Shown: piece after piece, positions 684 to 33,767 of the stretch
How positions within the stretch are numbered: the first letter of the stretch is position 1
How the letters are laid out: each line of letters starts with the position of its first letter
Assembly (NCBI RefSeq): GCF_034314085.1
Contig: NZ_JAVIWI010000001.1
Span: 2,604,001 to 2,668,000 of the forward strand
Direction: 5' to 3'
DNA: 64,000 nucleotides
Source of the DNA: Undibacterium sp. 5I1
GTDB lineage: Bacteria; Pseudomonadota; Gammaproteobacteria; Burkholderiales; Burkholderiaceae_D
Notes under the pieces: generated by a model
Database searches by the model: none
What the model was told of the DNA's origin: nothing
The model's input: the letters and a program-made list of their open reading frames with translations, nothing else
Translations under genes and position numbers: made by a program

Positions 684-780
684 AAAAAAAACCCGAAGAC
701 TTGGCTTCGGGTTGAATCCACCTAAGGAGGCAGAGGAGACAATTGCGTGGTTACTTAAAAGCAATACTTAAATAACCGAT
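684..780 (-). ncRNA. Candidate trans-acting small RNA with anti-Shine-Dalgarno segments
   Basis: No gene explains the strong minus-strand intrinsic terminator at 684-713: a 9-bp stem (690-698 with 705-713), a 6-nt loop, then a run of U. About 97 bases upstream of its end is a matching promoter with 17-bp spacing, predicting an RNA start near 780. The RNA would have a 5' hairpin with a 10-bp stem (749-758 with 768-777, one G-U pair), an open CU-rich stretch (about 714-748) and the terminator, the classic layout of an Hfq-type regulatory RNA. The open stretch holds CCUCCUUA (723-730), identical to the 16S rRNA anti-SD, and AUUGUCUCCU (734-743), complementary to the ompW and GDSL-lipoprotein ribosome-binding sites. 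I do not recognise a named family. The boundaries are predictions. Confidence 0.7.
690..713 (-). terminator. Intrinsic terminator of the candidate small RNA
   Basis: On the minus strand AACCCGAAG and CTTCGGGTT form a 9-bp stem around a 6-base loop and are followed by 6 to 8 U residues (684-691). No protein gene reads into it from that side, because the next gene (OsmC) is on the plus strand. Confidence 0.85.
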
Positions 781-786
781 GAGTCA

Positions 787-815
787 ATAATAGAACAATA
801 AATTGTGCAGTGCAA
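787..815 (-). promoter_or_regulatory. Sigma70-type promoter for the candidate small RNA
   Basis: On the minus strand there is TTGCAC (810-815) as -35, a 17-bp spacer and TATTAT (787-792) as -10. The -10 box matches the consensus at 5 of 6 positions and the spacing is ideal. The expected start point is about 780. Confidence 0.6.
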
Positions 816-18307: not shown

Positions 18308-18991
18308 TTAGAAGTGGTAACCCACACCAAAACTAATTCCAAGTGGATCAAGTTTGATATTTTGCGTTTGACCAGTTGAAAAATGTGCCGTCGTTTTCAA
18401 GAAAGTCTTAGTCAAGGCGAAGTCAGCAAACCATTTTTCGTTAATGGCATAGGTCGCACCTAACTGCGTCGTAATACAGAACTTGTTATCCATTTTAAAT
18501 GTCGTTGGATTTGGGCTACCAGTATTAGTCAACGCTGTCATTTGACCAGAACCTGTTTCCTTTTGGAAATAAGAGTAGGTCAAACCAAGTCCGGCATAAG
18601 GGCGAATTGTAGATTTAGGTTCGAAAAAACGGTATTGCACAAAAATAGTTGGCGGCAACGCCTCTGTTGTGCCAATTTTTCCAGTACCAGCAATCGCACC
18701 CGCACCTTTTAGATCAAACTTATAAGGAACACCAAGGGCCAATTCAGCGGAAATGTTGTCGGTAATCATGTAACTACCGACAAAAACGGGTTCGGTGTCC
18801 GTTCCAACATCTGCTTTTGTACCTGGCAAAGCTGGAGCACTTAGATCACCACTATCGACTTTTGGCTTTAGCTGATTAATACCAACTTTAGCGGACCATG
18901 TGCCTGCGCTTTGGGCAGAGGCTGCGGCACTAGCTGTAAGTGCTAAGATCACCGCCGCAAAATTAATCGCACCTTTGAAACATTTACTCAT
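18308..18991 (-). CDS. ompW: OmpW family outer-membrane beta-barrel protein
   Basis: A 227-residue protein from the ATG at 18991, which has TAGGAGAC just upstream. The signal peptide ends near SAQSAG (about residue 27). The mature protein shows alternating beta strands and the OmpW pattern AKVGINQLKPKVDSGDLSAP at the start, LPPTIFVQYRFFEP in the middle and a terminal GVGYHF with the C-terminal Phe needed for BAM assembly. OmpW proteins are 8-stranded barrels with a hydrophobic channel, linked to small hydrophobic solutes and stress. Its ribosome-binding site (18992-19001) is perfectly complementary over 10 bases to the candidate small RNA at 684-780. The transcript unit appears monocistronic. 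Confidence 0.92.
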   Translation of the reverse strand: MSKCFKGAINFAAVILALTASAAASAQSAGTWSAKVGINQLKPKVDSGDLSAPALPGTKADVGTDTEPVFVGSYMITDNISAELALGVPYKFDLKGAGAIAGTGKIGTTEALPPTIFVQYRFFEPKSTIRPYAGLGLTYSYFQKETGSGQMTALTNTGSPNPTTFKMDNKFCITTQLGATYAINEKWFADFALTKTFLKTTAHFSTGQTQNIKLDPLGISFGVGYHF

Positions 18992-19185: not shown

Positions 19186-20433
19186 TTACAACCACCCTCT
19201 AACAACCATTTCTTTAGAAACATAGCGCGCCAATAACAGATAACCATAGGGTGTCGGATGAACAGTATCCGCATATTCGTAGTTGTCAACGTTTGCTGAA
19301 ATTGTGTTTGACTTGTTGCATACGAGCGATGAGCCTAATGCATTTTTCGCAGCGCTCAAATCACAAGCGGGGGTAGTAACATTTGTTAAACCATAGATGG
19401 CAGGATTTGCAGCCTGGTCACGGTTGACTGTGTATGCATCAACATACAAAACGCTAGCGTTACCATCTAAACCCGCTCTTAACTGAGCATTAAAAGTCGT
19501 GACCATTGTGCTGATCAGACCTTGAGTCGCAGTATCAGAACCTAAGCCAAGTGGTGTTTGGCTAATATCGGGTAAATTGACAACAGTTACATATTTTGCA
19601 CCCTTGCCAACGATTAAAGTTTTGACGTAGCCGGCCAATTCTGCTCCTGCAGTACCCATCGCCGTAACAACAACAGGTGCATTGGTTTGCACATACGCTG
19701 CTGCTGCTGCTGCGCCTACTGTTGGCGTCAATGTAGCAATAGCGGCTGCTTGGCAATTACTAGCTTGCGCATCTGCAGGAACGCACTTGCCGCTCTTTAT
19801 ATCGAGTGCAATTTGTCCAGGAACTGCCGCTGTGACCGCTGCAGTTGCAGCAGCAGTTGCACCACTAGATAGCGTAGCAAGTTGAATGAAAACATCATTA
19901 CCACCAGCCATTACGAATACGATTTCGTCGCCTTTGAAACTACCGCCATTCAAAGCTAGATGGTTTTGGATTTGAGTAACAACAGGCACGGTCAACTGAC
20001 CCAAAACTGCGTTGGAGCCACCTAATAGTTTATTGCCTGGGCCAACTGGGTTTGTTACGCGTGCGCCACCTTGAGCATAAGAAGTGCAACCAGCATGGTT
20101 GACAACTGGAACGCTAAAACCTTGTGACGCCAAACCGTTTAAGCCTGTTTGTGCAGGACATGGTGCTGGCAAACCTAATTGCGCAGCCATTAACTCTGTC
20201 CAGTTTTTTGCGTTATTTTTACCGGTAGAATCAACGTCATTAACGTTGTATTTACCACCTTTTAATGCGGCTACTGTACCAACCGCATAAGTACCAACGT
20301 CACTTAAGCTGTCGCCAAATGATACTTGTGAGCTGAATTTGATTTTAGTGGTTTGATCACCAGCGCCACCGCCACCGCAGCCGGCCAGAACGGCAGCCGC
20401 GAGCAATGCCAGTGCAAAATTAGATTGACGCAT
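19186..20433 (-). CDS. SGNH/GDSL hydrolase, lipoprotein
   Basis: A 415-residue protein from the ATG at 20433 with TTAGGAGACAAA before it. The N-terminus carries a lipobox (LAGC, Cys19), so it is probably a lipoprotein. Block I is SFGDSLSDVGTY with Ser42 as nucleophile; block III is AGGNDVF; the catalytic Asp/His are in YADTVHPTPYGY near the C-terminus. Such enzymes are esterases or lipases acting on acyl esters at the cell surface. An Ala-rich insert near residues 205-275 contains short GCT/GCA-coded alanine runs and two Cys. The leader shares AGGAGACAA with ompW. It stands between ompW and the RND pump genes, all on the minus strand but with gaps of 160-280 bases. Confidence 0.88.
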   Translation of the reverse strand: MRQSNFALALLAAAVLAGCGGGGAGDQTTKIKFSSQVSFGDSLSDVGTYAVGTVAALKGGKYNVNDVDSTGKNNAKNWTELMAAQLGLPAPCPAQTGLNGLASQGFSVPVVNHAGCTSYAQGGARVTNPVGPGNKLLGGSNAVLGQLTVPVVTQIQNHLALNGGSFKGDEIVFVMAGGNDVFIQLATLSSGATAAATAAVTAAVPGQIALDIKSGKCVPADAQASNCQAAAIATLTPTVGAAAAAAYVQTNAPVVVTAMGTAGAELAGYVKTLIVGKGAKYVTVVNLPDISQTPLGLGSDTATQGLISTMVTTFNAQLRAGLDGNASVLYVDAYTVNRDQAANPAIYGLTNVTTPACDLSAAKNALGSSLVCNKSNTISANVDNYEYADTVHPTPYGYLLLARYVSKEMVVRGWL

Positions 20434-33502: not shown

Positions 33503-33578
33503 TGGTAGGCCGTGCGGGATTCGAACCTGCGACCAACGGATTAAAAGTCCGCTGCTCTACCAGCTGAGCTAACGACCC
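33503..33578 (-). tRNA. tRNA-Lys (anticodon TTT), copy 1
   Basis: Minus-strand 76-base tRNA from GGGTCGTTAGCTCAG to CCTACCA, with encoded CCA. The D-arm GTTAGCTCAGCTGGTAGAGC, the anticodon arm GCGGACTTTTAATCCGT (anticodon TTT) and the T-arm GGTTCGAATCC are normal. The sequence is identical to the second copy at 33692. It lies downstream of the tol-pal locus, as tRNA-Lys genes also do after tol-pal in E. coli. Confidence 0.97.
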
Positions 33579-33691: not shown

Positions 33692-33767
33692 TGGTAGGCC
33701 GTGCGGGATTCGAACCTGCGACCAACGGATTAAAAGTCCGCTGCTCTACCAGCTGAGCTAACGACCC
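33692..33767 (-). tRNA. tRNA-Lys (anticodon TTT), copy 2
   Basis: Identical 76-base sequence to the tRNA at 33503-33578, with encoded CCA and TTT anticodon. It begins 91 bases after the end of cpoB. Each copy has its own terminator. Confidence 0.97.

Follow-up and report, generated by a model that had tools for sequence, protein, structure and literature searches.

A small RNA gene of the RF02278 family beside rplM in Undibacterium, with a promoter box that suggests control by PhaR

Near the start of the window, by which we mean the whole stretch of 64,000 nucleotides analysed, a small RNA (sRNA) unit occupies positions 684-815 of the minus strand, between an osmC-like gene on the plus strand (1124-1582; PF02566, 57.3 bits) and rplM, the gene for ribosomal protein L13 (42-470, minus strand), whose nearest relatives are those of Undibacterium (96%). 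The first-pass annotation of this DNA had described an orphan unit in a region with no gene on that strand. The latter holds within 684-815 itself, but rplM, with its start at 470, sits 213 nt downstream on the same strand; and the unit is no orphan, as the order osmC-sRNA-rplM recurs in all five loci that we inspected by eye (L037, L081, L089, L093 and L099), in each of which a homologous ORF diverges from the sRNA. On the 3' side of the sRNA terminator lies a probable separate promoter of rplM (TTGCAC-17-TATAAT, 618-590, minus strand); among 15 same-genus copies, its TATAAT and TTGC show no change, and the last two bases of TTGCAC recur in 10 and 11 of them.

The unit has a promoter with a -35 element TTGCAC (815-810), a 17-nt spacer and a -10 element TATTAT (792-787), at coordinates that bear out the promoter proposed at first pass, although by consensus score (8 of 12) it is weak, falls under the cut of the promoter scan and is unlisted there. 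From this sigma-70-type promoter, transcription would start near 780 and stop at 684, yielding an RNA of about 97 nt that is predicted to fold into three hairpins (-29.4 kcal/mol, z -4.63, better than 200 of 200 shuffles). Its putative 5' leader (742-780) carries a hairpin (z -3.48) of 11 base pairs (777-767 with 759-749), where ten had been counted before, and is followed by the anti-Shine-Dalgarno (anti-SD) seed UGUCUCCUC (741-733), which contains the second CU block noted earlier and whose first seven nucleotides are unpaired in the fold. Next come a middle hairpin, UCUGCCU-CCUU-AGGUGGA (734-717), and an intrinsic terminator (713-684), whose stem (713-690) and U run emerged from both the terminator scan and the fold, at the place where the first-pass annotation had put them. 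Terminator-like sites are common in this DNA (6 in 3 kb against 3.5 expected) and, as neither promoter nor terminator is remarkable by consensus alone, it is conservation that makes the case.

The unit is a real small-RNA gene, the rplM-linked member of a family already named in Rfam, RF02278 (Betaproteobacteria_toxic_sRNA). Positions 741-683 match the full model (1-64) at 52.2 bits, a marginal score given the gathering threshold of 50, with the divergence located in the loop, and show the two hairpins, the U-run terminator and the 5' UGUCUCC seed of the family. The toxic RNAs were reportedly named by Kimelman in 2012. What the first-pass annotation had proposed, a terminated minus-strand sRNA gene with an anti-SD sequence that probably blocks ribosome-binding sites (RBSs), is thus sustained; its statement that no named betaproteobacterial family has this layout is overturned by the RF02278 match, and the Neisseria NmsR RNAs likewise have three stem-loops. 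An identity with the anti-hemB family (RF02837) was rejected, as the window copy scores 20.8 against a gathering threshold of 49.5. Of 145 genomes of the bacterial family, 134 have RF02278 matches, often more than one and up to 21 in a single genome; none of 14 control genomes has any. The genome studied here has five at E 0.001 or better, two of them over the threshold. The four besides the window copy form two tandem pairs (L002-L005; G000:C1:3238227-3238550 and 2987105-2987353), one of which is seed-degenerate, and this pairing recalls the Neisseria NmsR siblings; by eye, the promoters of L002 and L003 adjoin the seed, without a leader.

A search for the sRNA pattern within 1,200 nt upstream of rplM, with at most two seed mismatches, recovered it at 43 of 80 rplM loci, two of which (L041 and L103) have under 400 nt of upstream sequence. 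The genera with an rplM-linked copy include Undibacterium, Herbaspirillum, Glaciimonas, Noviherbaspirillum, Paraburkholderia, Burkholderia, Caballeronia, Cupriavidus, Ralstonia, Polynucleobacter, Limnobacter and Formosimonas; the pattern was not found at the other 37 loci, including those of the Massilia, Duganella, Janthinobacterium and Rugamonas of the set and that of P. fungorum L078. Over 46 distinct cores, all nine columns of the seed UGUCUCCUC are at least 90% conserved, the middle hairpin has 97.8% of its cells paired, mostly by invariant pairs around a loop of variable sequence, and the terminator helix has 92.4% of its cells paired, with changes on both sides in six of eight counted pairs. 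When the partners are slid, pairing over the whole structure drops from 94.7% to 27-48%. Together, the compensatory changes in the terminator, the pairing and the conservation of the seed indicate that the minus-strand RNA is what selection keeps; on the question, raised at first pass, of whether the plus-strand sequence alone is conserved, the compensatory changes speak for the RNA.

The same picture holds at closer range. Within the genus, 39 genomes were searched, 37 of which have rplM, and of the 30 rplM loci read, 15 have an intact seed together with the exact 13-nt promoter box described below, 11 an altered seed and no box, and four no recognisable RNA (the pattern match in L218 was taken to be spurious and the locus assigned to this last group). 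This count is striking, but the tree puts the joint loss of box and seed on one branch, so that it amounts to one evolutionary event. The 15 copies with an intact seed agree at every position of the box, the -10 and the 9-nt seed; mean identity is 52% in the 100 nt upstream and 57% in most of the leader. A leader hairpin is predicted in all 15, the weakest in L216 (-4.2 kcal/mol), as judged from single folds because the leader alignment is too poor for counting pairs.

The -35 TTGCAC makes up the left half of the dyad TTGCACTGCACAA (815-803, minus strand). By its conservation and its likeness to a published motif, this dyad is a probable operator, overlapping the -35, of PhaR/PhbF, a repressor responsive to the bioplastic PHB that the cell stores. 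The box occurs as TTGCNNNGCA upstream of the RNA in 34 of 44 rplM-linked orthologues (the window copy and 43 others), a count that, like those that follow, is not a probability because the genome sets overlap and related genomes are not independent. In all 34 the -10 lies 16-18 nt from it (17 nt in 30), and none of the 44 stretches downstream of the terminator contains it. The strict form, TTGCRNYGCA, is present in 31 of the 44 (reversed pattern, 0 of 44; shuffle mean, 0.07) and in none of the 44 copies within the 130 nt after the terminator. We also read 35 RF02278 loci, the five of this genome and the 30 best-scoring matches of the family search: all 12 that are rplM-linked have the strict box and, unlike the window copy, none of the 23 without rplM within the locus has it in either the strict or the TTGCNNNGCA form. 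A looser core, YGCRNYGCR, is met in 36 of the 44 orthologues, in three of these 23 loci (L002, L003 and L014) and in six of the 44 downstream controls, a weaker contrast, so that the distinction between rplM-linked and other copies rests on the TTGC-anchored form. In L002 and L003, a TGC(A/G)CTGCG stands about 21-22 nt upstream of the seed, directly before the -10; it conforms to the YGCRNYGCR core known from Sinorhizobium, though not to the TTGC-anchored box, and this pair, too, may be within the reach of PhaR.

Box and seed combined into one composite pattern are found in 14 of 399 genomes of the order, including this one, and in 11 of 158 genera (control, 0), with rplM within the fetched 3 kb in 12 of the 14, all except L130 and L137; this exact pattern misses true cases such as G032 and G085, where box and seed are both present but farther apart. 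At four loci (L090, L095, L104 and L112), the box lies so close that transcription would start about UGUC; such loci suggest UGUC as the functional 5' end and a leader that is dispensable or processed, the latter as reported for ncS27 and S17.

For Herbaspirillum seropedicae PhbF, which is a PhaR, the assigned motif is TG[N]TGC[N]3GCAA; footprinting placed the protein on its own promoter, and in E. coli it represses both phaP1 and phbF (PMC3206438). For S. meliloti PhaR, the core of the motif is YGCRNYGCR, and a phaZ site bound by PhaR contains TTGCGCTGCACAA (PMC12542648). On the opposite strand of 803-815 we find the operator core TGC[N]3GCAA, with one base differing in the outer TG. The genome encodes phaC-phaB-phaR, and the PhaR assignment is supported by PF07879 (105.8 bits) and the TIGR01848 equivalog (159.4). 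It also contains eight matches to TTGCRNYGCACAA, against one for the reversed control: two upstream of one phasin gene (PF09361), one upstream of a second phasin gene that is followed by a thiolase gene, one at this sRNA, and four without an evident PHB link. Of these last four (L116-L119), one is near a sigma-54 response regulator/HlyD pair and one falls within a ppnN-like gene, while the other two stand upstream of an AcrB-like gene and of hsdM.

A count of TTGCRNYGCACMA over six further genomes gave 70 matches. Of the 30 of these loci that were read, four adjoin phasin genes, three of them in two Polynucleobacter genomes and the fourth in Formosimonas, and another three are at the sRNA beside rplM. 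The excess over the control is clear in the three small genomes (8 to 0, 5 to 0 and 9 to 3), whereas two of the three larger ones are barely above it (9 to 8 and 21 to 16; the third, 18 to 6). PhaR itself is present in 75 of 79 genomes (47 of 49 and 28 of 30; L038 left out), so near to universal that correlating it with the box is uninformative; L088 and L102 have the box but no PhaR match, and L042 and L071 have neither, the sRNA pattern not being found in L042. The match of a conserved promoter sequence to the PhaR operator suggests that carbon storage switches the sRNA on.

The reading that we consider likely is that the rplM-linked RF02278 sRNA is repressed by PhaR through an operator at its -35, is released by PHB, and blocks RBSs by means of its seed. 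As the -35 lies inside the operator, PhaR should repress the sRNA: bound there, it would keep RNA polymerase from the promoter. When PHB granules form, they would titrate PhaR and the sRNA would be made; such removal of PhaR by granules has been reported at phasin genes in R. eutropha and S. meliloti. The 5' leader hairpin is possibly cut off, which would leave a double-hairpin RNA of about 58 nt beginning at UGUCUCCUC, whose single-stranded seed is predicted to pair with (A)GGAGACA-type Shine-Dalgarno sequences and so to block translation. For the covering of RBSs, we rely on compensatory mutations in Site 1 of the Bordetella pertussis RNA S17 and on the growth effects of B. cenocepacia ncS27; and because S17, a relative, depends on Hfq (PMC11722255), Hfq dependence of the window sRNA is plausible.

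Several known RNAs can be set beside the window sRNA. The double-hairpin RNAs of B. cenocepacia, ncS03, ncS05, ncS27 and ncS62 (PMC5688073, PMC4603805), share with it two hairpins, an unpaired CU-rich 5' end complementary to RBSs, and a terminator. Among them, ncS27 is a processed RNA of 92 nt encoded between BCAL3348a and BCAL3349, on the strand opposite both (PMC4603805), a position that fits our locus L093, from which we infer that it is the B. cenocepacia orthologue of the rplM-linked copy. Its overexpression is reported to inhibit growth (PMC5688073); S17 left the exponential growth of E. coli BL21 unimpaired (PMC11722255). S17 is comparable to the window sRNA in its seed (Site 1), to which UGUCUCCUC corresponds and with which its short, processed RNA begins, and in its sigma-A promoter with TTGCAT and a 17-nt spacer. 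It represses by RBS pairing via Site 1, as demonstrated by compensatory mutations that restored repression (PMC11722255), but it lies beside coq7, has a 190-nt precursor and varies in level with the Bvg mode. In Herbaspirillum, Hsnc059, 063, 086 and 107, of 93-115 nt, are among the sRNA transcripts listed (PMC7011215). The Neisseria RNAs NmsRA and NmsRB are laid out in a similar way, with three stem-loops, an anti-SD1 between SL1 and SL2 and an anti-SD2 in the SL2 loop (PMC5362039); the window sRNA follows this layout, but with no more than 4 nt of its loop anti-SD unpaired, and the NmsR RNAs, in contrast to it, are two sibling copies in tandem (PMC5688073). Sinorhizobium MmgR, by its description, is an sRNA under direct repression by PhaR/AniA, which binds the promoter of its gene (PMC12542648), as proposed here for the window sRNA; MmgR differs in being alphaproteobacterial, in standing also under NtrC and in being reported to lower phasin levels.

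Target prediction covered 331 genes in 464 kb from 20 stretches, two of which had been added to include phaR and the phasin-thiolase locus, the start sites being assigned by a crude SD rule with its own bias towards purines. At least seven contiguous seed pairs were predicted for 15 genes, among them the OmpW-family, GDSL-lipase, phaC and phaM genes, a number reached in 33 of 1000 composition-matched permutations, and at least eight for seven genes, reached in 16 of 1000. A perfect GAGGAGACA before ATG gave seven matches at six sites, against two in the control, two of the sites preceding frames of 18 and 3 codons.

Of the other ways to read these data, the one that we take most seriously, while holding it unlikely, keeps the RF02278 sRNA and gives it an ordinary promoter, constitutive or otherwise regulated, with the dyad as the site of another factor or an extended promoter element. 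It would account for the ten of 44 orthologues that lack the box, including same-genus L036 and Burkholderia L085, L093 and L096, the last three with a degenerate one, in most of which genomes, these four among them, PhaR is present. It would also suit the induction by glucose in B. cenocepacia, where ncS27 (4.3), the presumed rplM-linked copy, rises less than ncS03 (8.0) and ncS05 (6.9) (PMC5688073), so that this induction needs no box. Yet the second half-site, GCA, corresponds to no known sigma-70 element and is nevertheless kept at a fixed spacing, the same box stands at phasin promoters, and the 23 other RF02278 loci among those read (the five of this genome and the 30 best-scoring) are without it. 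That the element acts in cis, as a leader or attenuator of rplM, is so improbable that we rejected it as the main reading: a terminator with a U run and a promoter-like sequence of rplM's own at 618-590 separate the two, in several loci of Burkholderia and Paraburkholderia the seed and rplM are 500-1000 nt apart, in Burkholderia L093 a short ORF of the opposite strand intervenes, and 23 of the 35 family loci just mentioned have no rplM within the locus; as for the position upstream of rplM, its conservation in 43 of the 80 loci speaks for a cis role and the 37 loci without the pattern against it.

The other two alternatives concern what the RNA pairs with. In the form given to it at first pass, the active element is CCUCCUUA (730-723), which would mimic the tail of 16S rRNA and make the sRNA a general anti-SD competitor. 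The octamer is indeed there, and it equals the 16S tail of E. coli, but the 16S of this organism reads CCTCCTTTCT (two of four copies read), with the tail CCUCCUUUCU, a 7-of-8 match. Nor does the octamer lie in an open stretch, as had been thought: three of its nucleotides belong to the 5' arm, four to the loop and one to the 3' arm of the middle hairpin. It occurs in the window copy alone, being absent from 25 other same-genus copies beside rplM (1 of 26) and from 56 other orthologue sequences (1 of 57), and 15 of the 57, e.g., in Polynucleobacter, have no CUCC between the seed and the closing stem. Lying mostly in the hairpin, divergent from the organism's own 16S and unconserved, CCUCCUUA was rejected as a functional motif, and we give the 16S mimic very little credence; conservation and the predicted fold identify the single-stranded UGUCUCCUC (741-733), on the 5' side, as the active part. 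The earlier description thus had the gene and, roughly, the mechanism right, and the motif and the claim of novelty wrong. A negative feedback on PHB synthesis, in which the sRNA represses phaC and thiolase mRNAs, has a precedent in MmgR and is suggested by an 8-nt seed match at the phaC RBS of this genome and by 7-nt matches at the thiolase beside the phasin gene and at phaM. We nonetheless regard it as rather unlikely, given that over the 30 phaC loci read (40 genomes) the pairing reaches 7 nt in Undibacterium L036 and in Formosimonas, is 5 nt in L037 and does not exceed 6 nt elsewhere, and that the thiolase locus is in the sample by choice, through the two added stretches. With seed pairing modestly above the composition controls and the phaC pairing unconserved, such a loop is not claimed here, and beyond close relatives it is not supported.

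Returning to the reading that we favour, a PhaR-repressed sRNA that blocks RBSs by its 5' seed, what is already known is the family, RF02278, and what is new is the PhaR-type operator of its rplM-linked subfamily. The discoverers of the B. cenocepacia RF02278 sRNAs called their regulators unknown (PMC5688073), and for Cupriavidus necator the part that riboregulation plays in PHB synthesis 'remains undeciphered', according to a review (PMC8401924). A search of the open-licence literature found no link of RF02278 or double-hairpin RNAs to PhaR, which does not imply its absence from print; PhaR, phasin and polyhydroxy compounds are unmentioned in the main text of PMC5688073, whose Supplement Fig. 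S3 shows an upstream motif common to three double-hairpin RNAs that could bear on the novelty of the PhaR link. If true, a PhaR operator on one syntenic RF02278 subfamily ties carbon storage to translation control in betaproteobacteria. The analysis also moves the focus from CCUCCUUA to the 5' seed. In its wider form, in which we place a somewhat lower, still favourable confidence, the rplM-linked sRNA would be a PHB-sensing riboregulator conserved across several families of Burkholderiales: a PhaR-repressed anti-SD sRNA, fixed between osmC and rplM, through which carbon storage would switch off the translation of a group of mRNAs with GGAGACA-type RBSs, and thus the betaproteobacterial counterpart of MmgR.

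Two further observations come from the window. The OmpW-family and GDSL-lipase genes, which are neighbours on the minus strand (18311-18991 and 19189-20433), have AGGAGACAA-type RBSs with a predicted 9-nt seed pairing and are possible targets. Farther on, two tRNA genes of equal score (33506-33578 and 33695-33767, minus strand) lie 189 bases apart.
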